Made by a program: the position numbers and the translations under genes. The notes beneath the pieces are model-generated. The model was not told the DNA's origin and ran no database searches. It was given only the letters and a program-made list of their open reading frames with translations. A stretch of 64,000 nt of DNA from Fragilaria crotonensis (lineage: Eukaryota > Bacillariophyta > Fragilariophyceae > Fragilariales > Fragilariaceae): the NCBI GenBank assembly GCA_022925895.1, contig JAKSYS010000274.1:1-64000 (forward strand). The letters run 5' to 3'. Shown here piece after piece: positions 5,348 through 41,906 of this stretch (position 1 is its first letter; each line of letters opens with the position of its first letter).

Positions 5348-8300
5348 CTACGATCTATCGTCAACTGTAGTTTTCACCTCGACTTCTGGGGTGGGGATGC
5401 CTTCCAATGCTCTGCCGTAGCAGTGTTCCAGCCATTCAACCTTCGCGACATTCCCCCACTCTCGACATCGTGCAATCAACTGAGTCAAGTAATGACGCGC
5501 CCTTCTCACGTTCAATTGTGCCATCATAAGGTGAAGTACTCGCTGATATGCCATCGTCTCAAAAACTACAAGGCGACATTGCTTTAGACCCTCGATAGCC
5601 GCATCGAAGGCCGCTCTCGTGTCCTTATTTTTGACAATCGCATCCCATTCCGCGTTGACCAGCTTCCAAAGTGGTTGCACGTCGGGAACACCATCCAAAT
5701 ACCATTTTTTGAGTGTCTTCATGTACTTGCGTGCAATCCTCCGGTACTTGACTTTGTTCCCCTGACCGTACACTGCAAGTGCTCCCATCACGACTTGCGC
5801 GGTAACAAAGATGACATCGAAATAGCAAGACCCTTTCGTAAGAGCAAAAACAGCATCCGGAAAGGCTTTCTCCAACCCATCCCAATGCTCGAAGCTCAAT
5901 AACAACGTAAATCGATCCGTGTACAAAACGCAGCGGACAACATCATCGTCTCCTTCTGTGCGACTCCATTCAAGAAAATTTTCTTCGGTCATTGCCTCCC
6001 CAATCAGTACAAGGGGGTCATCTGATTGCCCGAGAAGGTTCAGAGCGTATTGCCGGCGTATGGTATGCACCCGCCACATATGCATGGCCTGGATTTCCTT
6101 CATTTGACGGCACCAACGCTTGAGATCATCCGCAACTTGACGGAGCGGGACACCAAGATGAAGTCGTACGTCTGTGTAACTGGACAGTGCCAAAAATGCA
6201 ATCGCAAGATCTGAAGTGCTCTCAGACCCACATCGATAGCTGGCAAGCAAGGGCTCTTCTAGCCCAGCCAAGTGTTGCCGCCAAGGAAAGACGATCGCTG
6301 ACGTGCTCATAAGAGAAATACATTTTGCGCTTGGAGTAGTGGTCACTTTAGTGCACAGTGTGACTGACGACTTCCCCCACCTGTACGCATCGTCGGCGTT
6401 CCCCATCACACGAAGAATCACAGCGTATCGGGCAAGTGTCGCGGCCGTGACAGCACAAACACCATACTTCACTGAAATTCTGATCTCACGGAGAGCACAG
6501 TAGAGGAAGAGTTGCCCGTAAAAGTGGACTACGAGAAACGGAGAAATACGGCTCAGCATCATCATTACTGAGAGCTTGTCGGGGTTTTCAATCCAAGGCA
6601 TAGACACAAAATCGCTTGGTTGCAAGCGCCGAAGGGCCACTTTTGTACGGCAAAGCTCAACCACAATCTGGGAAATGCTCGGTCGTTTTGGTATTTTTTC
6701 ACCGAGGCCTCTGAGTACCACATTGAAGGCCCAGTCAAGCATTCCATCGATATCATGACGATAACTGAAAGACATTATCTTCGTAGTATGCGCTCGAATG
6801 CGGTCTTCAAGTCGCGTAGCTCGCTTCAAGACTTCTGTAATGGCGGCATCACTCTTCTCGAAGAACCCGGTACAGCTGTTCGCCTCCGCATACGAGTTCT
6901 GCAAGTCCGCGCAAAGCTCATGATTGAACGACCAGTCAGACTCTTGTATCAGGCCGACCCCGCACTCCAGGAATTCCCGTGCATTGTCCACTGAAGCCTT
7001 CAGGGCTGCCAGTGTCGCAGCCCGAAGCAGAAGGCGCATCGTTGACAACCGCTCTAGGTCATGGGTGATGCACCGAGCTCCCCTCGTCAAGTTGCTTGCC
7101 GCAAGGAGGACTAACCTTTCGTCATGGGAGCGTTCTGTACAGGACATCATCCTCAACAAACCTCTCCCAATAACTGCGTGAATCGTCTCGCGTTCCAACT
7201 CTGTGTCCACTGACTGATACAGAAAATACTGAATCGAGTCATGGCAGAATTTGAATATCCCAGGCCCAATTTTCATCACAAGTCCACTATCGAGGGCGAC
7301 TTGAACGCGCTCTACGACCGAGTTTCGATCATATTCGAGTGACTTTCCGATGTTCTCATTTGATGCACTCGTGTCAACGTCCAAGATATACCCCAATACA
7401 TCGACTTCAAACGTATGTCCAACAAAAGCTGCCAGTCGGAGGAACTCCTGCACTGCCCCATCAAGATTCGTGATCTTGTTTGAGATGATCGCTGACGGAT
7501 TGTCCGAGACTTCAGCTTCAATCCCACCTATGCTCCAGTCCCAAACGTCGGTTTCGGGCGTGAAGTATAACAGGTCCTTTGATAACAAGAAATCCAGCAG
7601 TTGCAGAACTGCGTGGGGATTACCACTGGTCTTGTCGTATATCAACGTCACGAGTGTTTCAATATAATCATCGTTTCTGAGCAATAGACCCGAAAGCATG
7701 GACGATACCTCGCTGCGGTCAAGATTCGTCAGCTCTATCTCACTGAACAATAGATGCTCCATTCCCCAGAGGTCTAGATGCAGCCTGTCCTTCACATCCG
7801 CCTCATCATCGCGATAGGCCAGACAATACAGCACATGTCGAGAATCCGCGTTGCTTGCTAGTAATGCATCAATCAACCTTAAGGACAAATGATCCGCCCA
7901 TTGTAGATCGTCAAAGAAGATGAGAAGTGGATGTTCTTTTGTTGCAACAGCGCCCAGAAAATGCTTACAAGCAACCATTAATCGAGCGAAATCTTCGTTG
8001 CCGACAGTGTATCCCTCATAGTCACACTCCATTCCGGTGATGTTTGCAAGGTTTGTGACCACTCTGGACAGAATCGTACTCTCTGGGCCTAGAGCAACAA
8101 GTGCAGCTCTCCTTTCGTCCACTGGATTCTCACTTTGTAGTATGAGATCACAGATGTCTGAGAACGCAGCGGCAATGGCCGAATAGGGTTCTTTGCTAGT
8201 TTGCAGGAGATCAAACTTGCCCGACACGAAGGAGCCAGCATTATTCGTCACTACGTGCTCCCTCATGCTTTCCACGAGAGACGACTTTCCAGTGCCAGAG

Positions 8301-8533
8301 ACTCCATTCACAAATATAACCTCTGAATTGCCACGCGACGCTCTGTCATATGCGGCTCGAAGGGTTGCCATCTGCTGCTCTCGCCCGAACAAAAACGAGC
8401 GGAAATCTAAGAAATAATCGGGTATGCAGTGATCTGTTGTGACAACGCTCACGCTAACTTCTTCTTCCCAACGACGTCCATATTGATACGTGGCAGCATC
8501 GGAGGGAGCGTCTGAGAGATCGCGAAAGCTCAT
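5348..8533 (-). CDS. STAND/AAA_16-type ATPase with helical-repeat C-terminus
   Basis: Intact 1061-residue reading frame. The N-terminal part is an Orc1-like AAA (AAA_16) ATPase module: FGRE entry motif at about 49-52, Walker A GVSGTGKSS at about 77-85, and Walker B LLIFFDDLQWAD at about 203-214. A winged-helix/helical region follows, then about 500 residues of TPR-like helices with no catalytic motif that I recognise. Proteins of this build are the predicted ATPases found alone or fused to kinases and cyclases. In diatoms they form multigene families. The substrate and pathway are unknown. No histidine-kinase, GAF or cyclase domain is visible after the repeats, so this copy lacks an obvious output domain. 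The start at 8533 gives the full ATPase lead-in. A tyrosine-recombinase retroelement begins 119 bp upstream. A decayed copy of the 3' part of this gene lies at 35.45-42.45 kb. Confidence 0.8.
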   Translation of the reverse strand: MSFRDLSDAPSDAATYQYGRRWEEEVSVSVVTTDHCIPDYFLDFRSFLFGREQQMATLRAAYDRASRGNSEVIFVNGVSGTGKSSLVESMREHVVTNNAGSFVSGKFDLLQTSKEPYSAIAAAFSDICDLILQSENPVDERRAALVALGPESTILSRVVTNLANITGMECDYEGYTVGNEDFARLMVACKHFLGAVATKEHPLLIFFDDLQWADHLSLRLIDALLASNADSRHVLYCLAYRDDEADVKDRLHLDLWGMEHLLFSEIELTNLDRSEVSSMLSGLLLRNDDYIETLVTLIYDKTSGNPHAVLQLLDFLLSKDLLYFTPETDVWDWSIGGIEAEVSDNPSAIISNKITNLDGAVQEFLRLAAFVGHTFEVDVLGYILDVDTSASNENIGKSLEYDRNSVVERVQVALDSGLVMKIGPGIFKFCHDSIQYFLYQSVDTELERETIHAVIGRGLLRMMSCTERSHDERLVLLAASNLTRGARCITHDLERLSTMRLLLRAATLAALKASVDNAREFLECGVGLIQESDWSFNHELCADLQNSYAEANSCTGFFEKSDAAITEVLKRATRLEDRIRAHTTKIMSFSYRHDIDGMLDWAFNVVLRGLGEKIPKRPSISQIVVELCRTKVALRRLQPSDFVSMPWIENPDKLSVMMMLSRISPFLVVHFYGQLFLYCALREIRISVKYGVCAVTAATLARYAVILRVMGNADDAYRWGKSSVTLCTKVTTTPSAKCISLMSTSAIVFPWRQHLAGLEEPLLASYRCGSESTSDLAIAFLALSSYTDVRLHLGVPLRQVADDLKRWCRQMKEIQAMHMWRVHTIRRQYALNLLGQSDDPLVLIGEAMTEENFLEWSRTEGDDDVVRCVLYTDRFTLLLSFEHWDGLEKAFPDAVFALTKGSCYFDVIFVTAQVVMGALAVYGQGNKVKYRRIARKYMKTLKKWYLDGVPDVQPLWKLVNAEWDAIVKNKDTRAAFDAAIEGLKQCRLVVFETMAYQRVLHLMMAQLNVRRARHYLTQLIARCREWGNVAKVEWLEHCYGRALEGIPTPEVEVKTTVDDRS

Positions 8534-8652
8534 GATCGCAGGTTCGACGGTGCAACCTTATTGTGTTGTGCCAACGAAACTGAAACGGTTTGCTGTGGAT
8601 GAATGTGTACTGTATGTAAAGAAACACGAAGTTTGTTGATGAGGCGGTGTCA

Positions 8653-8874
8653 GCGGGATGCGCAAGCTTTCCCGCCTCAGTGGCTGCTGCTCCGTCCGGT
8701 CGTGGGGTGTACAGTAGGAATGATGTGCAGTGGGTCGGTACAGTGGCTAGGACGCCGACCCCGTAGTATAAACTTGAAATTAGAAGTGATGGCGGTGAGG
8801 CGACCTACTAAGGGAGCCTTTCCAACCAACTTCTGGAGACGGATAAGCTGGTCGCAGCGAATCCGTTCCATCGG
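8653..8874 (-). repeat. Split direct repeat B, outer copy (PAT-like element 1)
   Basis: 222 bp, matched base for base by eye to 9199-9420. It begins in a hairpin (gcggg...cccgc) at the element's outer end. It is separated by 10 bp (8875-8884) from the neighbouring A repeat. Confidence 0.88.
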
Positions 8875-8884
8875 TGTGGGTGGG

Positions 8885-9199
8885 TGGGCGTTTAAAGATG
8901 AGCTCGTTAGCTCTCACTATGCTAGTACGCGACCGCACTACTCGAGGAACCTAATGATGCAGGTTCCGCGAGCTTGACGTGAGGTGCTCGGGTAGTCTTA
9001 GCGGCGAGGGGCCGATTTCGACAACAATGAGAGATCGGGAAACTCGAGTCTTCCGTTCGGTTGCTTGAAACTAATTACATGTAGCGAGGTCCCGTGCGCT
9101 GTAGTATGATAATCTAGTCACGGGTGCTCTTGATGAATCCTCCGTGAGGTCGGATTTCGTGACGTATCCCCGACCTACCGTTCTCGCTGCCACTGACGG
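8885..9199 (-). repeat. Split direct repeat A, inner copy (PAT-like element 1)
   Basis: 315 bp, identical by eye to 14927-15241. It abuts the inner B repeat with no spacer, so this A/B junction should have the same sequence as the junction of a circular replication intermediate. Confidence 0.88.
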
Positions 9200-9420
9200 C
9201 GGGATGCGCAAGCTTTCCCGCCTCAGTGGCTGCTGCTCCGTCCGGTCGTGGGGTGTACAGTAGGAATGATGTGCAGTGGGTCGGTACAGTGGCTAGGACG
9301 CCGACCCCGTAGTATAAACTTGAAATTAGAAGTGATGGCGGTGAGGCGACCTACTAAGGGAGCCTTTCCAACCAACTTCTGGAGACGGATAAGCTGGTCG
9401 CAGCGAATCCGTTCCATCGG
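9199..9420 (-). repeat. Split direct repeat B, inner copy (PAT-like element 1)
   Basis: 222-bp copy of 8653-8874, lying directly downstream of the recombinase gene in the sense of the element. Confidence 0.88.
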
Positions 9421-9474
9421 CCCAAGGGCCATTAGGTGCAGGGAGGGAGGAGCCAGCGGCTCGGGAGGGGAGTG

Positions 9475-10668
9475 TTATGCAGGCGTAAGGCGGAAATCGC
9501 CGCCACAAAGCATGGCGGCGGCAAGGCCGTTCATGATGGGTTGCGCCTGCACGTGAAGGTAACGGAACATTTCGTCGGACCGCCACCGGCCAATCATCCG
9601 GAGACGGTCGCTGTCGACGCCGGCGCAGAGGAGGGCCATGGCGCCGCCAGCCCGTGTGGAGCGCACGGAGACATCGTGAAGGGCGTACGCGGGGTCTGGG
9701 TGTAGGTGGAGAACCGACCGGATGCGGGTGGTGATGTCGGTGGGGGTGACGTGACGAAACGGGGACGTAGGCGTGTTGCGGACGGCATTGATGGTGGTGT
9801 CCGCGGTGGCACCTTGCGCACGCAGTGTTAAGACGCGCGACGCAAGAGCCGTGACGGGACAAAGGGATGGGTGACCGGAACGGCCATGTCCGATCCGTTC
9901 GTTGCGAACGCCATTTTTCTGTTGGGTGAAGGTGAGCGTGACGAACGTGGCGGCACGAAGGTCGGCGGCGGGGCACGTGAGGGGATCCAGAGCTCGCGAG
10001 CCGATCCAAAATTGAACATCGCAGAGGCGGAACATGTGGGCGTCGCGCCGCGTGGGAGTGCCTAAGTATTCGCCGGGGCGAAGAAGGAAAAAGAAACCAA
10101 TGATTAAGCACGAAGCCGACGCCAGGGCCAAGGGGGCGGCTTCACCTTGTGCAAGCGCCCACACTTGGGCGACAACGGGCAAAGGCAATGGTTTGACGCG
10201 TCGGGGCGGCGCGTCTGCCTTTTGCCATGCGGCGAGGAGCGAAGCGAGGCGGTATTCGACTTTCCCATGGGTGTTTAGCCGAGGGTCAGGGGCCCCCAAC
10301 CGGGCGTGCGCCTGACCCACCGCTCGTAGGGCTTCTTCCACCGTGCGAGATCTGACAGCGTGACGTCCGGGTGCGATGGTGCCGGTGCGGTAGCGTTGGG
10401 CGAACAATTGGAGAAGAGGGACGTAGTCCGCATGGGGTGGCTGAACGGGTGCGACTCCCACGCTGGAACAGAAGGTCTCCCACAGGCGCCAGGAGGAGAC
10501 GGCTGTGGTATGTCGTTGAGCAGAGACACGAGAGTTGCACGTTTGTTCGAGAGTGCGCCAATCAGCGAAGCATGCGTCGCGGACGGCAGAGTCCGCATTT
10601 GCCAGGAGGACGTCTGCGGAAAGTGGGTAGCAAAATGAGTGAGTAATGCGGCATCGTCGAGGTCCCAT
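9475..10668 (-). CDS. Tyrosine recombinase (PAT-like element 1)
   Basis: 397-residue frame encoding the integrase of the element, a phage-integrase-fold (tyrosine recombinase) enzyme that would join a circular cDNA to the genome without target duplication. The C-terminal catalytic region shows the Arg-containing box (RSTRAGGAMALLCAG) followed by IGRWRSDEMFRYLHVQA, with the candidate nucleophile Tyr in FRYL. The N-terminal half resembles the core-binding helices. The start of the frame overlaps the end of the RT frame by 394 nt, a compact arrangement that is repeated in element 2. The protein is clearly homologous to the recombinase of element 2 at 40106-41299, which has the same 397-residue length. 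Confidence 0.87.
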   Translation of the reverse strand: MGPRRCRITHSFCYPLSADVLLANADSAVRDACFADWRTLEQTCNSRVSAQRHTTAVSSWRLWETFCSSVGVAPVQPPHADYVPLLQLFAQRYRTGTIAPGRHAVRSRTVEEALRAVGQAHARLGAPDPRLNTHGKVEYRLASLLAAWQKADAPPRRVKPLPLPVVAQVWALAQGEAAPLALASASCLIIGFFFLLRPGEYLGTPTRRDAHMFRLCDVQFWIGSRALDPLTCPAADLRAATFVTLTFTQQKNGVRNERIGHGRSGHPSLCPVTALASRVLTLRAQGATADTTINAVRNTPTSPFRHVTPTDITTRIRSVLHLHPDPAYALHDVSVRSTRAGGAMALLCAGVDSDRLRMIGRWRSDEMFRYLHVQAQPIMNGLAAAMLCGGDFRLTPA

Positions 10669-12623
10669 CGTCGACTTGCATCATCCGCCATTGCATTGAC
10701 CGGACCCGGAAGGTAGTGTTGGCGGGCGACGTAGCGATAGGCTCGCTGGTGCAAGGCGCTGAGCCTCAGGAGGTGCGAGCGTGCTGCCAGCGATGTGGCC
10801 GAACCCTTTGTAGCCCATGCTACTGCAGCGCGGTTGTCGCTTGCGGTCCAAATGGTCCGTTCGCGCACATCGCATGAGGTGGCCAAGACGTCCTGATGGG
10901 CAATGATGGCGGTCAGTTCAAGGTCCGATATTGTGATCGATCCGGTGGGATTGTCGGAGGTCACCAGGGCCTCGGACACATGCGGCGGAAACCGAGAGCG
11001 CCACAGGATGGGTGACGCGGTGGCGTCAAGGGCATCGAACCACACCCCACCCATGCCGAGGCGGCACGCATCGCAGGCGCCGATGTTGGAAGGCGCCGTT
11101 GGTACCAGTTCGGGCAGGCGAGTGGGACGATTGTGCACCGAATTTGCTAATGCCAAAAAGTCGCGCGCAAGGTCTTGGATTTGGCGTGACAGCCGAATGC
11201 GATACCTCTCCGTGTGCTGCAGTGCAGCCTGGAGCACGGAGAAGAGGCCGCGCGTGCCCGGTAAGGCTGGTGACATCGAACGTAGCTCCCCAAGCACTTG
11301 GTGCCACTTCTTGACTGTGAGTCGCTTATGCGGGGGCAATAACCAGGAAAGGACCTCGCGAATCCGCTCCATTCGATGCGGAGGCAAATGCAGCGTCAAG
11401 GCCGCAGAATCCACGTCCCAACCGAGGATGCGTTTGTGCGTAGCCCAATGGGCGTCACCCTTTAACATTTTCTTAACAGAAGCCGGCTCCTTGCGATGCT
11501 GTGAATCAGAATCCGACAGGGGCCGCATAACCTCATCAATGGCCGACAGCGTCGCTCGCATCACCTGCTTGCGCTGGTGATGCGTTTGTGCCATGAGGAT
11601 GAAATCGTCGACGTAAACGTCGACTTTGGAGACGGGTGGCCGCCTCGCGCCGCTGAGCACAGAGGGTAGGGCGGCCACGCTGCGCCGCGAGCGAAGGCTT
11701 GAAACTTCATCTGGAGGAGTGGCGGCCACTTGCTCCAGACGGTGTTCTTCATGGAGGCACGACTCGTGTCGGGACAACATGGCATTTGCTCTGTCGCAGG
11801 CCGTTTCTGTAAACGCCGTGAAGTAGGGTGGAGACTCCACCCACCCCATCGGCAGGGCAAGAGGGAAAGCAATCAAGGCTGAGCTGCCCGGCGCTGCTGG
11901 TAGCACAACTCCGAGCTTCGGTATATCGTCGACCTGCACCCATACCCGATAAAATCCGTCCGCGACATCAATCTTCGCCAAATACACGGGTCCGTACTTT
12001 GGGTGTGCGTGGACCAGGGTTGTGAGGACCCTTTGCAGTGCCCTGCCAAATTGCATGGCCTCACGAGGCGCCCACTGCAAGGTGTCGTCATTTACTCCCG
12101 AAAACGTATAATCGACGATCAGACGTGGACGTCGATCGCGTTGCGGGACCACGCCCAATGGGGAAATGCGAAGGCCGCCCAGGTCTGCTGCGTCATCGTA
12201 GGGTAGGATGATCCAGTACCCTTGGCGGCTAAAGTCCAGCATCTCCCTGGCCACAAACTGGCGTTCGCCCTCTGACGACCGATGGGGTCCCCGCTGCACT
12301 GCCTCATCGCATTGCTGTCGGCTCCAGGGTGCCGTGCGCAGTGGCACACTCGCGCCGCGGCGCCCCAAGTGTTCGAGCAACCTGGCCGCACGATGTGGCA
12401 CCCGTCCCACTTGGTCTGGGATATGTGATTGCCCGCGAGTCTCGTCTACCAATCGTCGCCAGCCAATTCGCCTCAGTCGCCACGCATTCTGAATTGCCAA
12501 CTTACCGAGTGCTTTTTCCGCGTCCGTGAGTTCGATTCCTGTTGGCTCCACTTGGAGTCCCGTCGCTGTTCGCTTCTTGCCGCTCGTGGTTGCTCCAGAA
12601 ATGCTATCGGCCTTTCGCTTCAC
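10275..12623 (-). CDS. Reverse transcriptase / RNase H (PAT-like element 1)
   Basis: About 780 residues. The RT palm motifs are visible: AKIDVADGFYRVWV, LPMGWVESPPYF and the catalytic VYVDDFIL. They are followed by a thumb/connection region and an RNase H domain with the acidic positions in DACRLGMGGVWF, ISDLELTAII, TASDNRAAV and NAMADDASR. This domain order without an aspartic protease or DDE integrase is typical of DIRS-order elements. The frame has no obvious own ATG near its beginning (it opens with GTG at 12623), so its translation probably depends on the upstream gag-like gene. The RT of element 2 is a recognisable but clearly diverged homologue. Confidence 0.87.
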   Translation of the reverse strand: MKRKADSISGATTSGKKRTATGLQVEPTGIELTDAEKALGKLAIQNAWRLRRIGWRRLVDETRGQSHIPDQVGRVPHRAARLLEHLGRRGASVPLRTAPWSRQQCDEAVQRGPHRSSEGERQFVAREMLDFSRQGYWIILPYDDAADLGGLRISPLGVVPQRDRRPRLIVDYTFSGVNDDTLQWAPREAMQFGRALQRVLTTLVHAHPKYGPVYLAKIDVADGFYRVWVQVDDIPKLGVVLPAAPGSSALIAFPLALPMGWVESPPYFTAFTETACDRANAMLSRHESCLHEEHRLEQVAATPPDEVSSLRSRRSVAALPSVLSGARRPPVSKVDVYVDDFILMAQTHHQRKQVMRATLSAIDEVMRPLSDSDSQHRKEPASVKKMLKGDAHWATHKRILGWDVDSAALTLHLPPHRMERIREVLSWLLPPHKRLTVKKWHQVLGELRSMSPALPGTRGLFSVLQAALQHTERYRIRLSRQIQDLARDFLALANSVHNRPTRLPELVPTAPSNIGACDACRLGMGGVWFDALDATASPILWRSRFPPHVSEALVTSDNPTGSITISDLELTAIIAHQDVLATSCDVRERTIWTASDNRAAVAWATKGSATSLAARSHLLRLSALHQRAYRYVARQHYLPGPVNAMADDASRRWDLDDAALLTHFATHFPQTSSWQMRTLPSATHASLIGALSNKRATLVSLLNDIPQPSPPGACGRPSVPAWESHPFSHPMRTTSLFSNCSPNATAPAPSHPDVTLSDLARWKKPYERWVRRTPGWGPLTLG

Positions 12624-12728
12624 ACCCAGAAGGCTAGGGGGTGAATCCCCACTCCGCTGACCTGCCTCCCAAGGTGGCGCTCTTAGTAGCCAGGCAGAGA
12701 CGGAATCCGTCCCTCCCTGGCCGCCCCG

Positions 12729-14894
12729 TCAGGCGTTGGCCCCCCGGGCTGCGGGGGGTGCGGCGAGGCGCTCTTGGACGTATGCTAACAAGCGCGTCCT
12801 CTCGCCTTGGGACGCGAACGGTCGATGCGTTTCCCGACGTCCACAGTTGGAGTAGCATGCACCCCGCGTCCACCAGGCAACACACAATTCGCGTCCGTCG
12901 TCACTGGCCGGCGGTGGGTGGTCCCGCATGATTGGTCGGGTCCCACCGGGTCGGAGGGTGATGCTTGCAAATTCACTGTCGGGGGCTGGATTGGTGATGC
13001 GCACGTTCGCGGGTGCCGTCGTGTCGCCGGTAAGTGTGGAAACTGCTGCCGACTGCACCGATCGCGTGCTGGGTCCCGTTGATGCAGCAGTGGTTGCCAC
13101 ACTATATGGGTGCGCTCGTGAGGTAGTGCCCGGTTCCATGTACTCCATTGGGAGGTCAATCCAGTTAGTTGAGTTCTGGAAGGTCCCTCTGGTCAAGTCC
13201 AGGAGCATATTGTCAAAACTTGGCACGGCAACTCCCTCGATGTTATCTTCCCCATTGGTGGCAACGCGCATCAGATATTCTTGCGACAGAACCTGCACGG
13301 CTCGAACGATTCTTGCGTAGTAGATACTTGTGATGCGGTGAACGCTTGCGAGTTCGTTGTATTTGTCCGTGACGAATGGCTCCACATCCTTGAGACCGGA
13401 CGCCACCTTCCATAGAGACTCGACAAATGGGTGCCTTTCTCCGGCACCCTGGAATAACATCTGGCAAAGCACGGCATACCGATACAAAGTTATGCAAACC
13501 TCGGTGGCGTTGAGTGGAAACTTCAGTTTTTCGCCTTCGCGAATCGTGCGGATGTCAGCCAGGCTTGCGCTTTGGTCGCCCTGTGCCAACTGGGCCGCCA
13601 CCGCTGACGCCGAGGTCACTTGGTGGTGGTGCGCCTTTCCAGCGTACGCGACCATGAAAGGTTGACACCCCGTGCTCAGGTCATCCACGCTGTAGCCTGC
13701 GAATTGGAATCCCACAACCATTTGCTTCAGCGCCGTGGTCACCACGGGGACGTATAATTGCGTGGACAGGCCTCTCGCGACACAGACCTTCTGCAATTCT
13801 TGGGTGAGTAGAGTGTGTTGTTCACTCTTATGGCAGTTCGCCAACCTCTGCCATACGGGCGCGACATCGTCCGCGCTCGACACATTACAAAACCGCAGCA
13901 ACACCCGGTGGGTCTCCTTGTACACGTCCGTGATCGATTTTGATTCGCGCGGGAGCAGCATTCCATCTTCGCCTTCTCGGCGGGTCAATGCACGCAATGC
14001 TCCAACTAACGTAGCAGCGGAGGCAGACGAGACGCCTCCTCCTGCCGTCGCCACGATCCCGGGTAAGTCACCTTGCACCTTGGATGTCACATATTGGTAC
14101 ACCTCGGGGGGGAGATGCACTGGGTTGAGTTGGAGGAGCACCCCTGGCACGTCCTGGAGTGCTCCTCCTCCCCCACGTGCTGTACAGGCCGCTCGTAACC
14201 ATGTCACGACGTCGCCGCACCGTTCCAGTGCTTCATCCGCCCTGATCGCGCCGACAACTTCTTGATAGGCCTGTTTGGCCTTAACGCGTCGCCGATGGAT
14301 GATGAGGGAAGCATACTTTCCCGGAATCAGTTGCGTGTTCCGCGGGCGGATCACCTCAGTTTCCGGATCCTCCTCGGTAAATGGCCCTAATGGTACTCTA
14401 GGGTCCGCCCAGGTTGGAATGAGTGCTTCCATCGCCGCAACCGTGGGTACCCGAACCGGGGCTCCCACCAGATGGTAGGTGGTGTTTGGGATATCCACTG
14501 CAGGGTACTGGTGGGGCATGATGTCCCCCAATAGTCCGAGGACGCGGTCGTTGAATCCTGTCGGTTCATCCCCCGGTGAGTCGACAAAACGCAGCAACCG
14601 GTGTACGACGGATACGTCAGGGTTCCCATCTGGTCCATTCACCAAACAGAGGAAAGCCATGGGTTGACGATCGCTCAACGCGACCGTCTGGTCGCGCAGC
14701 TGTGCCGGCGTCGGTATATCACCTTCACCAGCGAACCTGTACCCCGCGAGGTACCCGGCGACGCGGTCGAACGCAGGATTGTTGGCCGCATCGGAGTACA
14801 ACTCGCGATATGTGCGTGGCGGGCCGGCGACTACCTCCGGTGGTAGTGGCGGACCCGCCGCGCCGGCTGCGGGCGGTAGTTCTTGGTGGGCCAT
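12729..14894 (-). CDS. Gag-like protein (PAT-like element 1)
   Basis: First gene of the element, 721 residues from the ATG at 14894. That start is chosen because its MAHQ matches the MAHP start of the element 2 protein. Presumed nucleocapsid or structural protein. It has no database-type domain that I recognise. Alignment by eye with the gag-like protein of element 2 shows shared stretches all along (SDRQPMAFLCLV, ALKQMVVGF, KEKIRFP/GEKLKFP). A conserved C-terminal Cys/His cluster (CVAWWTRGACYSNCGRRETH) is followed by PFAS-GER-RLLAY and may be a zinc-binding nucleic-acid module. Confidence 0.72.
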   Translation of the reverse strand: MAHQELPPAAGAAGPPLPPEVVAGPPRTYRELYSDAANNPAFDRVAGYLAGYRFAGEGDIPTPAQLRDQTVALSDRQPMAFLCLVNGPDGNPDVSVVHRLLRFVDSPGDEPTGFNDRVLGLLGDIMPHQYPAVDIPNTTYHLVGAPVRVPTVAAMEALIPTWADPRVPLGPFTEEDPETEVIRPRNTQLIPGKYASLIIHRRRVKAKQAYQEVVGAIRADEALERCGDVVTWLRAACTARGGGGALQDVPGVLLQLNPVHLPPEVYQYVTSKVQGDLPGIVATAGGGVSSASAATLVGALRALTRREGEDGMLLPRESKSITDVYKETHRVLLRFCNVSSADDVAPVWQRLANCHKSEQHTLLTQELQKVCVARGLSTQLYVPVVTTALKQMVVGFQFAGYSVDDLSTGCQPFMVAYAGKAHHHQVTSASAVAAQLAQGDQSASLADIRTIREGEKLKFPLNATEVCITLYRYAVLCQMLFQGAGERHPFVESLWKVASGLKDVEPFVTDKYNELASVHRITSIYYARIVRAVQVLSQEYLMRVATNGEDNIEGVAVPSFDNMLLDLTRGTFQNSTNWIDLPMEYMEPGTTSRAHPYSVATTAASTGPSTRSVQSAAVSTLTGDTTAPANVRITNPAPDSEFASITLRPGGTRPIMRDHPPPASDDGRELCVAWWTRGACYSNCGRRETHRPFASQGERTRLLAYVQERLAAPPAARGANA

Positions 14895-14926
14895 AGCTTG
14901 AGTAACTGAAGCGACGTGCACTCCAA

Positions 14927-15241
14927 TGGGCGTTTAAAGATGAGCTCGTTAGCTCTCACTATGCTAGTACGCGACCGCACTACTCGAGGAACCTAATGAT
15001 GCAGGTTCCGCGAGCTTGACGTGAGGTGCTCGGGTAGTCTTAGCGGCGAGGGGCCGATTTCGACAACAATGAGAGATCGGGAAACTCGAGTCTTCCGTTC
15101 GGTTGCTTGAAACTAATTACATGTAGCGAGGTCCCGTGCGCTGTAGTATGATAATCTAGTCACGGGTGCTCTTGATGAATCCTCCGTGAGGTCGGATTTC
15201 GTGACGTATCCCCGACCTACCGTTCTCGCTGCCACTGACGG
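14927..15241 (-). repeat. Split direct repeat A, outer copy (PAT-like element 1)
   Basis: 315-bp copy of 8885-9199 at the 5' end of the element, ending 33 bp before the ATG of the gag-like gene. It presumably carries the element promoter. Confidence 0.88.
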
Positions 15242-15629
15242 TGAGTGTCGCACATAAACATATGTCATTCAATTCGGCAGAAAAAAAAACATGCGTCGCA
15301 AGCTTCGCAAGTATGTCAGCACCGAGCTATGCACGTACTATAGCATGCACCATGCACAGGACATTCCACCTACTTTAGGGTCTTATGTCAGAATCCATGA
15401 TAAAAGTCTGTTGTAAAATAAAAAGTCATCAGTAAAATGATACACACTCACCAGTTATATTACGAAATCGTCGTCCTATAGAGTGGTTTCTCCATGTAGT
15501 TTTCATACAAGTATGGCTGTTGAGAATCCCAGATATCGTGAGCGCGGTACCACAGTACTTGCTCTGGTTATGGGGTGATAACTGCAGTTGTCAGGCCTTG
15601 ACAAAATCTGTAAAGTAAAAGTTATGAGT
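15242..15629. other. Spacer between retroelements, possibly 3' LTR debris of the copia fragment
   Basis: 388 bp without a gene. It lies directly downstream of the copia-type fragment on the minus strand and could hold its 3' end or LTR. No partner LTR is visible in the window, so this cannot be confirmed. Confidence 0.3.
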
Positions 15630-35540: not shown

Positions 35541-35784
35541 CTGATAGCAGATGCGCAGACAAGAGATCGGCCAAGCGTACAGAACGTTCCACTGAACACG
35601 TGCGCACCAAAGAATTCTTCTCGGCAGCTTGAACAGAAGAGACAAGCAATCGTCCATTGTTTGGGACGAAGCATCGCAACATCGGTTACGATCACCCAGC
35701 AGCTGATACCTCTGTGTTCACACGCTCGATCTTCGCGAGCCCGAACGCACTGTGAGGGGTCCGGAACTTGTTAGTTAAAACCCG
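35541..35784 (+). repeat. Split direct repeat A, outer copy (PAT-like element 2)
   Basis: 244 bp, identical by eye to 41487-41730; it ends 33 bp before the gag-like ATG, the same spacing as in element 1. Confidence 0.9.
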
Positions 35785-35817
35785 ACCTGTGCGGCACAGC
35801 CTACGAAGTATCGTACC

Positions 35818-37965
35818 ATGGCACACCCAGGCCCTGTCCCGGAGGCTATTCCTCCCGTACTGGCACCGGCCGTACGAGCGCCTACTGCGCCTACGTCCTA
35901 TCGTGAAGTGTTTTCGGACGGTACCCGCGATGCCGTCTTCGGGCACCCAGCGGCGTACTTAGCAGGCTACCGTTTCGTCGACGGAGGCGGGCAACCAGTG
36001 CCGACACCGGGGGCGCTGCGTGACCAGACTGTTCTCTTTTGCGACCGCCAACCCATGGCATTTTTATGCCTAGTGGCGCGTTTGGACGAGGTAGTGGAAG
36101 TGAGGATCCTCCATCGCTTTATGCGATACATGGAGCTTCCAGGGGAACCCACCACGGGGTTTCGCGATCGAGTACTCGGCCTCCTTGGGGATCTTCGCCC
36201 AAATCAGTATCCGGTAGTCGACGTCCCCGCAACGATACTATATTTGGTGGCCTCCCAGGTACGCATCCCGACTCATGATGCAATGGCAGGAATCTTGGCA
36301 ACATGGGATGGGGATGCCCCATTGAGCCCGTACTTGGAGCCGGATCTCCTAACCGAGGTAGTGAGGCCCCGCAACGTGCAACTCGTGCCGAGTCGATACG
36401 CTGCCTTGTTGGTACATCGTGAAGGCGTCACACCAAAACAGGCCTATCAGGAGATCGCCGGAGCTATCCATGCGGACGGCAATGACGCCGCCTGCTCCGA
36501 CATCTTGACTTGGCTCCGGACGGCCTGCACTTGCCGAGGCGGGGCAGGTCCACAAGCGGGCTCATCCATTGTGCTCCACCCATTGAACCCGGTTCACTTG
36601 CCGGGAGCGGTTTATGACTATGTCGTTTCCAAGATCATGTCGGATTTGCCAGCACTGCGCAACCCCGTGGGGGTGGGCAGTGCGGGCGCCCTGGGTGCCA
36701 CTGAGATTGCAACCGTTGTACAAGCTCTAGCGGCAGCCCGCAATGCCGACGATCACCCACGCGAACCACGCACCATTCGGGAAGCCTACAAAGAAACCTA
36801 CCCTGTCCTCCTTCGCTACAACAGAGTGACGGAGGCAACTGGTGTGGCCCAAATTTGGGATCGCTTGGCAAACTGCCAGAAGGGAGAGCAGCAAATCATC
36901 CTCCAACAGGAATTTGCCAAGGTATGTGCTGACCGGATGCTAAACCCGGAGCTTGTTTGCCCTGTTGTTACAACGGCCCTCAAGCAGATGGTCCTGAGCT
37001 TCAACTTTGCCGGTTTTGGACCCGATGACTTGGGCATAGGATGCAACCCGTTTCAGGTAACATATGTTGGCGCCACGGATTATTATCAGGCGCAGGAGTC
37101 GGCGGGGGTGTCGCAACAACTGGACCAAGGTATGCACGGTGCGACGCTATCAGACATTCAGGCCATCAAGGACAAGGAGAAGATACGCTTCCCGACGGAC
37201 CTGCACCAGGTAGGCACAACTCTTCAGAGGTACGCTGTCCTCGTGCAGACCTTGTTTCAGGGAGTAGCGGAACCTGTGCATCCTTTTGTGCGTGCCATCT
37301 GGGCCCTTGCCATGGGGTACCAGAATAAACTCCCCTTTATACTGGACCGGTACCATGGGCTGGCGGGGTCTCCTGCGATTCAACAGGCATACCCAGCCCG
37401 CATCCTTCGCTCCATCCAAATTCAAGTGTACGAATACCTTCGGGGAATCATGATTGCGGCCACCGACGACACCACGGCCGCTGTCGACGCCTCGCCGGAT
37501 TTCACTCAACTTTTGTTGGATTTGCAGCGAGGAACGTTCCACACCTCAAACGGCTGGGTGCCCCTCCCATCAGCCTATGTCGTAGCCCCGGTCGTCACCC
37601 TTCAACCGGCACGTTCCGCGGGCACGATCACGACTACGTCCATGACGACCGGCGGAGGTGCAAGTGTGGCCAGTGGAGTATCCGCATTAACGGCGGCAAC
37701 CACGACGGTTGCTCAAACTCGCTGCGCCAACCCGGTCAACGATCCCGCATTCAACGACATGGTGCTGCGGGGAGCTCTAGGCCCGCTGACCCGGGCCAAC
37801 AGGCCGCCCCGCAACGACGCGGGAAACGAATTTTGTGTGGGATGGTGGTGTAAAGGTGGGTGCTATTCCTCTTGCGGGAGGCGCAGCGCCCACGTTCCCT
37901 TTGCGTCCCCAGGAGAGCGCGAGCGGTTGCTGGCATATGCCACCACCCACCTGCGCCTGGAATGA
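35818..37965 (+). CDS. Gag-like protein (PAT-like element 2)
   Basis: 715 residues from the ATG at 35818. Homologous along its length to the gag-like protein of element 1 (shared CDRQPMAFLCLV, RDRVLGLLGD, VVTTALKQMV). The C-terminus keeps the same Cys/His cluster (CVGWWCKGGCYSSCGRRSAH) and the following PFASPGERERLLAY. Presumed structural, RNA-binding protein. The second cysteine in WWCKGG is not shared with element 1, so the core zinc ligands are likely the other conserved Cys and the His. Confidence 0.75.
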   Translation: MAHPGPVPEAIPPVLAPAVRAPTAPTSYREVFSDGTRDAVFGHPAAYLAGYRFVDGGGQPVPTPGALRDQTVLFCDRQPMAFLCLVARLDEVVEVRILHRFMRYMELPGEPTTGFRDRVLGLLGDLRPNQYPVVDVPATILYLVASQVRIPTHDAMAGILATWDGDAPLSPYLEPDLLTEVVRPRNVQLVPSRYAALLVHREGVTPKQAYQEIAGAIHADGNDAACSDILTWLRTACTCRGGAGPQAGSSIVLHPLNPVHLPGAVYDYVVSKIMSDLPALRNPVGVGSAGALGATEIATVVQALAAARNADDHPREPRTIREAYKETYPVLLRYNRVTEATGVAQIWDRLANCQKGEQQIILQQEFAKVCADRMLNPELVCPVVTTALKQMVLSFNFAGFGPDDLGIGCNPFQVTYVGATDYYQAQESAGVSQQLDQGMHGATLSDIQAIKDKEKIRFPTDLHQVGTTLQRYAVLVQTLFQGVAEPVHPFVRAIWALAMGYQNKLPFILDRYHGLAGSPAIQQAYPARILRSIQIQVYEYLRGIMIAATDDTTAAVDASPDFTQLLLDLQRGTFHTSNGWVPLPSAYVVAPVVTLQPARSAGTITTTSMTTGGGASVASGVSALTAATTTVAQTRCANPVNDPAFNDMVLRGALGPLTRANRPPRNDAGNEFCVGWWCKGGCYSSCGRRSAHVPFASPGERERLLAYATTHLRLE

Positions 37966-38129
37966 CATGAGGCGGCTCCGGGTGCGATAGCCAGAGCACC
38001 TGCGCCCGGACGCCACCTCACCTGCGCGGCAGGCGTCGTGGCACCAACGGTGGGCGCGACGAGGCTGAGGAATCGGACGAGTGGTCGAAACTGGGGGACA
38101 ACAAACGGCTCAAGCAGGTTGAGCCAGAA

Positions 38130-40448
38130 TTGTCCCCGGCGGAGGCAACTTTATGTAAGTGGGCGGCAGATGCTAATGTTGAGTTGGCGTCCCTTGGATG
38201 GGAGGAACTGGTGAAGCACGCCCGTGGGACTTCGCAGTTGGATGACAAAGTCCAGTGGATCCCGCACAAGGCAGGCCGCCTACTGGACCATCTCAGACGG
38301 AGAGGCGCTGCCGTGCCAATGCGGACGGCGCCCTGGACGCACGAGCAGATCATGACCGCGGCCAAGCGCGGATGCCACAAGTCCGCTCGCGACCACACGG
38401 AGTTTGTCTGCGAGGAACTCGTGGATTTTTGTCGCCGAGGATACTGGACGGTACTGCCCTTGGACGCTGTACAGCATTGGCCCGAGCTCCGACTCTCGCC
38501 GCTTGGCGTGGTGCCCCAACGTGAGCGGCGCCCGAGGTTGATTGTCGACTACACGTTTTCGGGCGTCAATCAAGACACCGCCCGGTGGGCCCCCGCTGAG
38601 GCAATGCAATTTGGGCGCGCCCTCCAACGTGTTTTATCGCGTATTGTGCATGCTGACACGAGGTTCGGCCCGCCAAAGCTTGCTAAAATAGACATTGCTG
38701 ACGGTTTTTATCGCGTTTGGCTGTGGTGGCGGGACATACCCAAGCTCGGCGTCTTGCTTCCGTTCAGCGGCAATGGGGGTAGCACCCAACTGGTGGCGTT
38801 CCCTCTGGCACTCCCGATGGGCTGGGTCGAGAGCCCTCCGTACTTTACGACGTTGACGGAAACAGCCTGCGACTTGGCCAACGTGGCCATGACGCACGGT
38901 GGGCCCATGAGGGCACATCGATTGGAACGGGCGGCCAATACGCCACCGGCCGCCAGCAACAAGGACAACACACTCGCGACGAGGCCAGCTACCACCTGGA
39001 GACGTAGCACACCCCTTAGTGGTGCGTCCTGCCAGGGCACGTGGGCGAGTCAAAACGCACATTTTGGTGCCTCCCGCCGCCCACCGGTCGCTGCCGCCGA
39101 CGTCTATGTGGACGATTTTCTTCTCACTGCGCAGACTCGGAGACATCAAACCCGATTGTTGAGGGCCACGCTCCACGCCATCGACTCCGTCCTACGGCCC
39201 CTATCGGAAGACGACCCAAGTCACCGTAAGGAGCCCTCGTCCGTCAAGAAGATGCTCCAAGGTGATGCGCATTGGGACACTCGCAAGATGATTTTGGGAT
39301 GGCAACTAGACACTGTAGCGGGGACCCTCAACTTGCCCTCTCACCGCATTGCTCGCCTCTATGAACTCTTGGATGCAGTGCAGCCGCCCCGCAAGCGCCT
39401 TCCCCTCAAGGCATGGCATAAGCTGCTTGGAGAACTGCGCTCCATGGCGCCCGGACTTCCCGGCTCCCGGGGTCTCTTTTCGGTTCTCCAAGACGCCTTG
39501 AGTCGCGGTGACCGGGGGCGCATTCGCCTCAATCGCCATGTCTTTGACACCATGGCCGACTTTCGTCTCCTAGCCGACTCGTTGGCGCACCGCCCCACTC
39601 GTCTCCGCGAGTTGGTTCCGGTGTCCCCATCCGATTCGGGCTCGTGTGACGCATGTCGCCGCGGCATGGGGGGCGTGTGGTTTGACCTGCTCCAGCCGGA
39701 CGCTCCACCCATCGTGTGGCGCGCCCCCTTTCCAGCTTCCGTCCAATCCTCGCTCATCACGGCTGACCACCCTCACGGCACGCTTAGCATCTCGGACTTG
39801 GAACTCGTGGGCACCATCGCCCACAAGGATGTTCTGGCACAAGCCCGACACGTCCACGAACGCACCATCTGGATCGCGGGCGACAATAAGGCTTCCCTCT
39901 CTTGGGCAACCAAAGGGTCGGCAACCTCCGATCGTGCGCGGGCCTACCTCCTTCGCCTCAATGCCCTCCACCAACGGGCTCATCGCTACGTCTCCCGTCA
40001 TCATTACATTGCGGGCACCGCCAACTCGATGGCTGATGATGCTAGCCGCTTGTGGCACTTGAGCGACTCTGACTTACTCACCCATTTTGATTCTGCTTAC
40101 CCACAGTGCACCTCTTGGACACTACACCACCCGACGCCCACCATGCTCTCCGCTTTGAATGGTGCCTTATCCAAGCAACGATGCGTGCCCGAGTGTCTCC
40201 TCAGCGAGATCGCTCAGCTCGAGCCGCCTGGCAACTGTGGGAGACCTTTTGTTCCGATCTCGGGGTCGCTACCGACCTCACGGACACCCCTCGCGACAAA
40301 ATACCTGTACTCCAACTCTTTGCACACCGCTACCGCACCGGCCTCCTGTCGCCCTGCGGCCGGCCCGTCCGATCTCGCACGGTGGAGGACGCCCTACGAG
40401 GCGTGGGGCAGGCGTTCGCCGGGGTGGGGGCCATTGACCCTCGCCTGA
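38130..40448 (+). CDS. Reverse transcriptase / RNase H (PAT-like element 2)
   Basis: About 770 residues. RT motifs: LIVDYTFSGVNQDTARW, AKIDIADGFYRVWL, LPMGWVESPPYF and VYVDDFLL. RNase H acidic positions lie in DACRRGMGGVWF, ISDLELVGTI, IAGDNKASLSW and NSMADDASR. Like the RT of element 1, the frame lacks a clear ATG of its own (it opens before 38130), so expression presumably depends on the upstream gene. Its end overlaps the recombinase frame by 343 nt. Confidence 0.87.
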   Translation: MSPAEATLCKWAADANVELASLGWEELVKHARGTSQLDDKVQWIPHKAGRLLDHLRRRGAAVPMRTAPWTHEQIMTAAKRGCHKSARDHTEFVCEELVDFCRRGYWTVLPLDAVQHWPELRLSPLGVVPQRERRPRLIVDYTFSGVNQDTARWAPAEAMQFGRALQRVLSRIVHADTRFGPPKLAKIDIADGFYRVWLWWRDIPKLGVLLPFSGNGGSTQLVAFPLALPMGWVESPPYFTTLTETACDLANVAMTHGGPMRAHRLERAANTPPAASNKDNTLATRPATTWRRSTPLSGASCQGTWASQNAHFGASRRPPVAAADVYVDDFLLTAQTRRHQTRLLRATLHAIDSVLRPLSEDDPSHRKEPSSVKKMLQGDAHWDTRKMILGWQLDTVAGTLNLPSHRIARLYELLDAVQPPRKRLPLKAWHKLLGELRSMAPGLPGSRGLFSVLQDALSRGDRGRIRLNRHVFDTMADFRLLADSLAHRPTRLRELVPVSPSDSGSCDACRRGMGGVWFDLLQPDAPPIVWRAPFPASVQSSLITADHPHGTLSISDLELVGTIAHKDVLAQARHVHERTIWIAGDNKASLSWATKGSATSDRARAYLLRLNALHQRAHRYVSRHHYIAGTANSMADDASRLWHLSDSDLLTHFDSAYPQCTSWTLHHPTPTMLSALNGALSKQRCVPECLLSEIAQLEPPGNCGRPFVPISGSLPTSRTPLATKYLYSNSLHTATAPASCRPAAGPSDLARWRTPYEAWGRRSPGWGPLTLA

Positions 40449-41299
40449 ATGCCTTCGGCGTCGTCGATGTTCGTCTCTCGTCCCTGTTCCAAGCCTGGAA
40501 AAAGGCGGACCCACCGCCCACCCGCGTCAAACCGCTCCCCCTACAAGTCGTCCACGGGGCCTCCCAATTAGCTCTTCTTAGTGGAACCCCCTTGGCCCTT
40601 GCGGCAGCGGACTGCATGGTGGTTGCCTTCTACTTCCTGCTACGTCCTGGCGAGTATGCGGGAGCCCCCAAGACGGACGCTGACGATTTGTTCCGCCTCC
40701 AAGACTTGGGTCTCTGGATCGGTGGCCGCAAGTTGGACGTTCCGACCTGTCCGCTGGCCGACTTGACCGCCGCTACCTTCGCCACCTTGACTTTCACCTC
40801 CCAAAAGAACGGTGTGGGGGGGGAGACCGTCGGTCATGGCCGCTCCGGCCACCCCACACTCTGCCCCGTCCTGCGCCTCGCCTCCCGAGCTCTCCATCTC
40901 CGGCAACACAATGCTCTTCCCACCACTCCCCTGAATGCGTCGCGCACATCTCCTACCTCCTGCTGGCAATATGTTCCGCCCTCCTGCATCACTGCTCTCC
41001 TTCGCAGCGCTGTCGCCTTGTCCCCCGGCTTAGGCTTCTCTGCCAAAGACGTCTCGGCACGCTCCACCCGCTCCGGGGGCGCCATGGCTCTCCTGTGTGC
41101 TGGCATTGATGGCGACCGCATACGCCTCATCGGGCGCTGGCGCTCCGATGAGATGTACCGGTACCTTCATGTCCAGGCACAACCCGTTATGAACGGCATC
41201 GCCGCGGCCATGTTCCGTGGCGGTACGTTCAGCTTCACCCCTGGTGACGCACCCACCCTTCCGGCGGCGGCACTCCTTGCCGGCGCCCCACCCTTCTAA
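40106..41299 (+). CDS. Tyrosine recombinase (PAT-like element 2)
   Basis: 397 residues. Catalytic region RSTRSGGAMALLCAG, then LIGRWRSDEMYRYLHVQA with a Tyr in YRYL as candidate nucleophile. Same length and same overlapping start as in element 1. The first reliable methionine region lies inside the end of the RT frame, so the N-terminal boundary is uncertain. Integrates the circular cDNA without target duplication, in line with the clean edges of the element. Confidence 0.87.
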   Translation: MHLLDTTPPDAHHALRFEWCLIQATMRARVSPQRDRSARAAWQLWETFCSDLGVATDLTDTPRDKIPVLQLFAHRYRTGLLSPCGRPVRSRTVEDALRGVGQAFAGVGAIDPRLNAFGVVDVRLSSLFQAWKKADPPPTRVKPLPLQVVHGASQLALLSGTPLALAAADCMVVAFYFLLRPGEYAGAPKTDADDLFRLQDLGLWIGGRKLDVPTCPLADLTAATFATLTFTSQKNGVGGETVGHGRSGHPTLCPVLRLASRALHLRQHNALPTTPLNASRTSPTSCWQYVPPSCITALLRSAVALSPGLGFSAKDVSARSTRSGGAMALLCAGIDGDRIRLIGRWRSDEMYRYLHVQAQPVMNGIAAAMFRGGTFSFTPGDAPTLPAAALLAGAPPF

Positions 41300-41318
41300 T
41301 TCCTTCGGGCCCATGGGG

Positions 41319-41486
41319 GCAGAAGCGGACCCTAGGTCCGCCTACGGTTGCAGGGTGAACGGTACTCAGTAAAACTGCAATCGCCACCACAACCTACTAG
41401 TACTACTCTATAGGACCAAAAACATCTACCTATCTACACACGGGCCGAACGTTGACGTAGCGAATGTTAGAGGCGGGCGAAGCCCG
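41319..41486 (+). repeat. Split direct repeat B, inner copy (PAT-like element 2)
   Basis: 168 bp, identical by eye to 41739-41906. It contains the palindrome gcggaccctaggtccgc near its start and the hairpin gggcgaagccc at its end. Confidence 0.9.
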
Positions 41487-41730
41487 CTGATAGCAGATGC
41501 GCAGACAAGAGATCGGCCAAGCGTACAGAACGTTCCACTGAACACGTGCGCACCAAAGAATTCTTCTCGGCAGCTTGAACAGAAGAGACAAGCAATCGTC
41601 CATTGTTTGGGACGAAGCATCGCAACATCGGTTACGATCACCCAGCAGCTGATACCTCTGTGTTCACACGCTCGATCTTCGCGAGCCCGAACGCACTGTG
41701 AGGGGTCCGGAACTTGTTAGTTAAAACCCG
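41487..41730 (+). repeat. Split direct repeat A, inner copy (PAT-like element 2)
   Basis: 244-bp copy of 35541-35784, abutting the inner B repeat with no spacer. Confidence 0.9.
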
Positions 41731-41738
41731 CCCGCCCA

Positions 41739-41906
41739 GCAGAAGCGGACCCTAGGTCCGCCTACGGTTGCAGGGTGAACGGTACTCAGTAAAACTGCAA
41801 TCGCCACCACAACCTACTAGTACTACTCTATAGGACCAAAAACATCTACCTATCTACACACGGGCCGAACGTTGACGTAGCGAATGTTAGAGGCGGGCGA
41901 AGCCCG
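41739..41906 (+). repeat. Split direct repeat B, outer copy (PAT-like element 2)
   Basis: 168-bp copy of 41319-41486, marking the 3' end of the element; host pseudogene sequence resumes at 41907. Confidence 0.9.

Follow-up and report, generated by a model that had tools for sequence, protein, structure and literature searches.

A Ngaro-type tyrosine-recombinase retrotransposon of the diatom Fragilaria crotonensis with a proposed stop-codon readthrough site and a proposed intron

Among the retrotransposons that carry a tyrosine recombinase (YR), DIRS and PAT are described as having a methyltransferase, whereas Ngaro and VIPER are described as split-repeat elements without one, with internal repeats after the YR gene (PMC4157794, PMC3266345). 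The order A-ORFs-B-A-B, in which A and B are direct repeats and ORFs are open reading frames, is the published Ngaro order (PMC8547959, PMC3783388), and a dinoflagellate element described as DIRS also shows it. Stramenopile hosts are known, with 15 Ngaro and 5 PAT-like families given for the brown alga Ectocarpus (PMC12477816). Sources on such elements note that the reverse transcriptase (RT) and YR frames overlap or are shifted in frame, and their available text gives no mechanism. Here we describe an element of this kind from the diatom Fragilaria crotonensis. It lies in the first 64,000 nucleotides (nt) of contig JAKSYS010000274.1 of assembly GCA_022925895.1, a stretch that we call the window and that is part of our contig C196. 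We judge it likely, from its sequence and from that of its relatives, that this is a Ngaro-type diatom retrotransposon that uses stop-codon readthrough and alternative splicing to make two fusion products, Gag-RT and Gag-linker-YR.

Anatomy and affiliation of the element

The element occupies the minus strand from 15241 to 8653 and, in coding direction, has the order A1-ORF1-RT/RNase H-YR-B1-A2-B2 (Table 1). A repeat search of 7500-16500 returned two families of direct repeats and no inverted repeats of at least 25 nt; the inverted termini and internal complementary region of DIRS-type elements are thus missing here, and assignment to DIRS was rejected. One base is common to A2 and B1, and a spacer of 10 nt (8884-8875) separates A2 from B2. 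The element begins (first bases of A1) and ends (last bases of B2) with the bases that adjoin each other at its internal B1/A2 junction, and the same rule holds in three other elements, namely, a second element in the window and relatives on contigs C571 and C283. In the immediate flanks of all four, no target duplication was seen by eye. A split-repeat layout that recurs in relatives in this way cannot be chance. The YR stop codon lies only 54 nt from B1, and the element is GC-rich relative to its surroundings. When 553 and 559 bases of the flanks were used as queries, no match spanned an empty site.

An earlier note on this DNA had proposed a whole-looking PAT-like element with split direct repeats in the order A-genes-B-A-B, three long frames and no target duplication, and had taken the identity of its repeats as a sign of a recent move. 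Most of this description stands. The ends that it gave, 8653 and 15241, are right to the base; both repeat pairs, read base by base, are identical over their full lengths of 315 and 222 nt; all three frames were found on the minus strand; and the absence of a target duplication and the tyrosine-recombinase identity were borne out by the flanks and by the Cre-like fold of the YR model, respectively. The identity of the repeat pairs points to a recent insertion, and the element is a whole, young tyrosine-recombinase retroelement.

The ORF1 product is called Gag-like from its position and from a C-terminal Cys/His motif (C-WW-G-CYSNC-R-H); it had no Pfam match at E values up to 0.1, and its first ATG, at codon 10 (MAH...), is common to the second element of the window. 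The RT frame carries a YVDD box, and RVT_1 was matched in 16/16 RT members, weakly: the best E value was 2.1e-6, and that of the main element, 2.4e-4, is below the curated cut-off. No other Pfam family was found in the three frames at E values up to 0.1. The AlphaFold model of the RT-RNase H frame, with a mean predicted local distance difference test score (pLDDT) of 63, matches RTs of foamy virus, cauliflower mosaic virus, HIV and Ty3, with a best structural E value of 6.5e-9 and, among the matches listed, template-modelling (TM) scores by query of at most 0.28. The putative RNase H domain is assigned only by the fold order of strands and helices in this model, and residues 703-782, which follow it, have pLDDT values below 50 and are predicted to be disordered. 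The YR model (pLDDT 64) matches Cre and Cre-variant structures, with 32 matches at E values up to 1e-3 (TM by query 0.30-0.38), the best at 4.5e-7. Sequence profiles searched against PDB returned four RT matches at E values of 0.7-1, which we take as chance, and none for YR.

Phage_integrase of Pfam was matched by none of 15 YR members, in all of which R197, R336, R339, W362 and Y370 are invariant. Box II of the recombinase reads R336-S/C-T-R339 in all 15 aligned members, in place of H-x-x-R. R336 aligns with the His of that motif (H-S-L-R) in a distant YR of the same genome, locus L072 on contig C24, whose own Phage_integrase match is weak (4.5e-4).

Ngaro-type is a better label than PAT-like for this split-repeat, methyltransferase-free architecture. 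Since PAT, VIPER and the dinoflagellate element described as DIRS share the order A-ORFs-B-A-B, the order is not diagnostic alone. The PAT-like label of the earlier note had to be given up, as neither the three frames nor 16 RT members showed a methyltransferase (Pfam, E values up to 0.1); the stretch behind RNase H is predicted to be disordered, and there is no room for such a domain. The element resembles the Ngaro elements described from Cafeteria burkhardae (PMC8547959) and fungi (PMC3783388) in its A1-ORFs-B1A2B2 layout, its size class of 6-7 kb, its GC richness relative to the surroundings, and its set of Gag-like ORF1, RT-RNase H and YR without methyltransferase. It differs from them in the long overlap of the RT and YR frames and in a conserved candidate UGA readthrough signal and a putative intron, neither of which is mentioned for Ngaro in the available text of these two papers. 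Box II is R-x-x-R here and H-x-x-R in the Cafeteria Ngaro (PMC8547959), the latter being a general YR motif rather than a definition of the Ngaro family. With the PAT-like elements Pat1, TOC and kangaroo, our element shares split direct repeats and a YR, whereas a methyltransferase belongs to the definition of that group (PMC4157794). VIPER/TATE, described from kinetoplastids (PMC6681497), has a similar pattern of terminal repeats, a YR and no methyltransferase, a likeness of architecture.

Conserved signals at the ORF1 stop codon and within the RT frame

The signals were read in 23 of the at least 67 RT places of the genome, that is, in those of 30 fetched RT loci that reach codon 40 of the RT frame. 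The ORF1 stop codon is UGA followed by C in 23/23 of them, and in 21 of them the RT frame follows in the same phase with no other stop in between. Among these 21, the next codon is CGG in 15 (the main element included), CGA in 2, CGC in 1, CTA in 1 and CTG in 2. A stem-loop starts at nt 8 after the stop, behind a 7-nt spacer, in all 21 in-frame elements, a count that leaves out the two out-of-frame copies; its arms are GCCAGG and, 18-42 nt on, CCTGGC, every span is a multiple of three, and the minimum-energy fold holds all six pairs in 21/21. Starting 3 nt behind the stop, a stretch of 62 nt has a more stable fold than its dinucleotide-shuffled versions have on average, in 22/22 elements (L028 left out), with z scores of -2.3 to -5.9 and a mean of -3.9. 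Type II readthrough is described as UGA with CGG or CUA and an extended stem-loop that starts about 8 nt 3' (PMC3542737), and the candidate junction of ORF1 and RT matches this published arrangement closely. The same arrangement is shared with alphaviruses and with tobra-, peclu-, furo- and coltiviruses, whereas gammaretroviruses use UAG with a pseudoknot (PMC3542737). Unlike the viral type II signals, the Fragilaria signal belongs to a retrotransposon, in which it would fuse Gag with RT and, once the RNA is spliced, with YR.

The linker that follows UGA is conserved at the protein level in the RT frame, with PPW present in 21/21 elements while third positions are free; in the main element, it holds no ATG in this frame. 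By eye, most relatives also have a KKR/KRK-like basic patch in the linker, which is nuclear-signal-like and would be common to both proposed fusion products.

A start codon is usually missing from the YR frame. Among 20 YR loci with a match that begins no later than residue 10, 15 lack Met over the first 30 residues, and 10 are interrupted by stops among the first 13. Codons 40-42 of the RT frame, in contrast, read N|GTAAGT in 23/23 elements. This hexamer is kept while the residues around it vary (codon 40 encodes Gly in 18, Arg in 4 and Cys in 1; codon 42 encodes Leu, Trp, Tyr or Phe), and its Lys is AAG in 23/23, whereas both AAG and AAA occur in four further Lys columns that are almost invariant. 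A comparison of 696 codon columns in 22 elements, with L029 excluded as a twin, shows no invariant run of at least 6 nt besides this hexamer; the next four runs are five long. Gln at codon 670 is likewise CAG in 21/21, compared with 24-61% CAG in six other nearly invariant Gln columns. Two elements fall outside this count, L033 with a gap and L034 with another codon in the alignment; the YR loci of their contigs, L043 and L051, have CAG by eye, as do all 23 sequences inspected. Between the two sites, Leu 661 is CTC in 17/20 elements, while no codon exceeds 12 in the other invariant Leu columns; in the main element, this forms a branch-point-like CTCAC whose A lies 26 nt before the end of the proposed intron.

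The conserved GT...AG ends and their matching phase are features of a spliceosomal intron. GTAAGT and CAG are both in phase 1, and splicing would therefore put the linker in frame with YR. The putative intron measures 1874-1952 nt across elements. The joined frame reaches at least 427 amino acids (aa) in 13 of the 19 elements with both sites and ends at 104-305 aa in the other 6. A query in which exon 1 was fused to YR gave 109 genome matches, many of which start at residues 38-46, adjoining the junction at residue 40, although such starts could also come from dual coding. Matches on C24 and on C409, which belongs to the C24 lineage (30%), reach back to residues 18-20, and the YR frame there runs on upstream.

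Both candidate splice sites recur in a distant lineage, on contig C186, whose YR is 33-35% identical to that of the main element (two pieces read). This lineage keeps UGA-CGA before the RT frame; G|GTAAGC falls on a Gly-Lys position, and the corresponding point of RNase H reads CTTTTCCCTTACAG|. Its putative intron would be 1886 nt long and in the same phase, with the joined frame open to the end of the piece; a second GTAAGT lies 280 nt upstream in another phase. Since both sites are present in a lineage with a YR only about one-third identical, the arrangement would be old in the algal group. A further lineage of YR retroelements comprises locus L072 and some twelve places with YR identity near 30%; in its C24 copy, the YR frame overlaps an RNase-H-like end lying in another frame.

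A proposed mode of expression and its alternatives

We propose that a full-length RNA running from A1 to B2 would be translated to ORF1 (Gag) and that a small share of ribosomes, helped by the C after UGA and by the stem-loop at nt 8, would pass the stop codon into the linker with its basic patch. On unspliced RNA, readthrough would continue into RT-RNase H and give Gag-RT; once the 1.9-kb GTAAGT...CAG intron had been spliced out, the linker would be joined in phase to YR and give Gag-linker-YR. Retention or removal of the intron would then set the ratio of polymerase to recombinase, with both enzymes tied to Gag and thus to the particle. In line with the general model for such elements, RT would copy the unspliced RNA, both ends would be completed by means of the internal B1-A2 block, giving a circle in which B joins A, and YR would recombine this B-A junction with the target without duplication. 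In retroviral and copia-type elements, one full-length RNA is retained for genome and polymerase and spliced for another product. Unlike in those systems, the spliced product of the Fragilaria element would be the integrating recombinase.

A broader version of this proposal, to which we give slightly better than even chances, is a two-step expression code in which all catalytic products would be Gag fusions made by UGA readthrough into one shared linker, with intron retention picking RT-RNase H or YR. This code would be old in the algal group, and the R-x-x-R lineage would be a separate one beside Ngaro, PAT, DIRS and VIPER.

Several observations weigh against readthrough and splicing as proposed. 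ORF1 and RT are in different frames in the second window element and in L028. No strong local stem follows UGA in the C186 lineage (-9.2 kcal/mol over 62 nt), an argument against a universal stem. The counts are not of independent events, since the 23 elements are relatives of one another, with L028 and L029 sharing 99.7% identity. An ATG is present in the linker in the RT frame in 6 of 21 elements, where separate starts are possible, and is lacking in the other 15; this set includes the two out-of-frame copies. The genome yielded no clear spliced retrocopy, with no match covering exon 1 and the YR of this family together. Finally, placing a host intron by reading frame in the PDS5 gene of the window left four compatible choices, too ambiguous for a host splice consensus.

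The lack of a spliced copy would fit a YR made from unspliced RNA, whether by -1 frameshifting within the RT/YR overlap or by internal or non-AUG initiation, with GTAAGT and CAG kept for another reason such as RNA packaging or structure. YR lies in the -1 frame of RT with an overlap of 394 nt, and a shift in frame between RT and YR has been described for Ngaro (PMC3783388). From codon 600 onward, however, no slippery heptamer is shared by more than 2 of the 22 elements, and -1 frameshifting was rejected on this ground; against expression from unspliced RNA also stand the scarcity of Met near the start of the YR frame and the two conserved motifs, which have the same phase, fit a GT-AG intron at each of its ends and are found again in C186. 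We therefore consider expression of YR from unspliced RNA to be unlikely. The linker ATG codons would suit a different account of the ORF1-RT junction, in which RT has a separate start, through reinitiation or a further splice that removes ORF1, or in which UGA is read as selenocysteine rather than by a near-cognate tRNA. Diatoms have selenoproteins, and a stem-loop follows UGA at some selenocysteine codons as well. On the other side, a search of 8600-15300 for a selenocysteine insertion sequence (SECIS) at E values up to 10 returned none, only three microRNA-model matches far below their cut-offs; most elements have no linker ATG; and the type II motif, as published, consists of UGA-CGG/CUA and a stem at about 8 nt (PMC3542737). 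Selenocysteine was accordingly set aside and kept as a weak rival, and this whole group of explanations seems very unlikely to us.

Loss of the methyltransferase from a PAT-like DIRS element would also give an element of this architecture, as split direct repeats are common to PAT, Ngaro and VIPER, and a Pat1 lineage of Caenorhabditis briggsae is suggested to have lost its methyltransferase (PMC4157794). Nothing in the three frames was recognized as such a domain or its remnant, however, and the overlapping arrangement of RT and YR leaves no space for one, which makes this origin highly improbable. We thus favor a Ngaro-type element expressed through readthrough and alternative splicing.

Relatives, neighborhood and significance

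The earlier note had asked for further copies, and a search of the 62.1-Mb assembly of 881 contigs found at least 67 places for the RT frame and at least 109 for the YR frame. The main element has no close copy in the genome; its closest relatives are 71% identical in RT and 73% in full-length YR, with pieces reaching 76%, and the YR retroelements of this genome as a whole are 27-76% identical to it. A comparison of 32 loci revealed five groups whose members are 97-99.7% identical over 3-5 kb (C212/C66, second window element/C499, C226/C418, C546/C526 and C219/C179/C733). The relatives on C571 and C283 have the same order of parts and exact A pairs of 305 and 311 nt. Among 30 fetched YR loci, B pairs are identical over at least 150 nt in 12 and 98.5-99.5% identical in 5 more; three others have B pairs of 86-97%, and in the rest, they are missing, short, differently placed or cut by a contig end. 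Near-identical B pairs at so many loci indicate that several lineages inserted recently. No relative was found in IMG/VR or in a collection of prokaryote genomes.

The second window element is young by its identical repeat pairs, yet its ORF1 and RT frames differ; CAT comes after its UGA, the stem there differs but is just as strong, and contig C499 carries a copy 97% identical to it over 3 kb. At L060 (contig C326), a 615-nt direct repeat with 430-nt spacing follows YR, which suggests tandem extra A-B units.

Table 1. Positions of the features of the two elements in the window
Feature	Position	Strand	Remark
A1, left split direct repeat	14927..15241	-	Outer 5' end at 15241; identical to A2
ORF1, Gag-like, 730 aa by mechanical start	12729..14921	-	Gag naming from position and Cys/His motif
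ORF1 stop UGA, proposed type II readthrough site	12729..12731	-	CGG next
Predicted readthrough stem, 5' arm GCCAGG	12716..12721	-	Minimum-energy fold
Predicted readthrough stem, 3' arm CCTGGC	12689..12694	-	Minimum-energy fold
Post-UGA linker, 74 codons, ORF1/RT frame	12507..12728	-	PPW motif, KKR/KRK-like basic patch
RT-RNase H frame, 782 aa from mechanical start	10275..12623	-	Open from UGA onwards
Proposed 5' splice site GTAAGT, RT codons 40-42, phase 1	12500..12505	-	23/23
Proposed intron, 1892 nt	10614..12505	-	Would be kept for RT-RNase H, removed for YR
Branch-point-like CTCAC	10639..10643	-	Codon-661 CTC bias
Proposed 3' splice site CAG	10614..10616	-	CAG 21/21
YR frame, 397 aa by mechanical start	9475..10668	-	Proposed translated exon 10613-9475
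B1	9199..9420	-	222/222 identical to B2
A2	8885..9199	-	315/315 identical to A1
B2	8653..8874	-	Outer 3' end at 8653; identical to B1
Second element of same family	35541..41906	+	Same repeat layout
Second element, A pair	35541-35787 and 41487-41733	+	247 nt, exact
Second element, B pair	41319-41486 and 41739-41906	+	168 nt, exact
Second element, frames	ORF1 35818-37965, RT 38130-40448, YR 40106-41299	+	
Second element, proposed splice sites kept	5' 38155-38160, 3' 40104-40106	+	

Other mobile sequences share the window. A Ty1/copia remnant lies just outside the main element (15518-15800 and 15630-17030, minus strand); its terminal stretch recurs at 39 further places at 90-100% identity, with several pairs about 5.5 kb apart. 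An intact-looking Ty1/copia polyprotein, a frame of 1761 codons with RVT_2, occupies 51281-56566 (plus strand), and an open frame at 47123-48346 (minus strand) matches DDE_Tnp_4/Plant_tran, which we take by name to be a Harbinger-type transposase. On the other side of the main element, a frame of 1061 codons for an AAA_16/STAND-type ATPase (5348-8533, minus strand) has its 5' end 120 bp from the insertion and four similar stretches elsewhere (81-86%). In the assembly, the silicon transporter family has 19 matches, 18 of them over the cut-off, and light-harvesting proteins have 61. This gene content makes a diatom the most likely host, since silicon transporters are typical of diatoms, although some other algae possess them too, and it led us to reject an oomycete host. 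Fused silicon transporters are seen at C97:29749-33762 (1456 codons, three matches in a row) and C771:21664-24330 (1008 codons, two matches).

Among the titles and beginnings of abstracts listed for DIRS or Ngaro, with most subscription journals beyond reach, none describes this mode of expression, and a literature search for Ngaro with stop-codon readthrough in a retrotransposon found no paper. Words that start with intron or splic are absent from the main texts of PMC3266345 and PMC3783388. By title, none of the papers listed for diatoms is on diatom Ngaro, and a paper on diatom long-terminal-repeat retrotransposons names DIRS, in its available text, only as a reference set (PMC2806351).

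Our results show that the YR retrotransposons in the genome of this alga form a population that is large, divergent and in part young. One readthrough site and one intron may be the answer to how a YR frame that overlaps RT is expressed. If this is true, the element would be a retroelement that uses splicing to set the ratio of its polymerase to its integrating enzyme, with both tied to Gag, and a retrotransposon with stop-codon readthrough of the type II class. This would explain the expression of the overlapping RT and YR frames in such elements.

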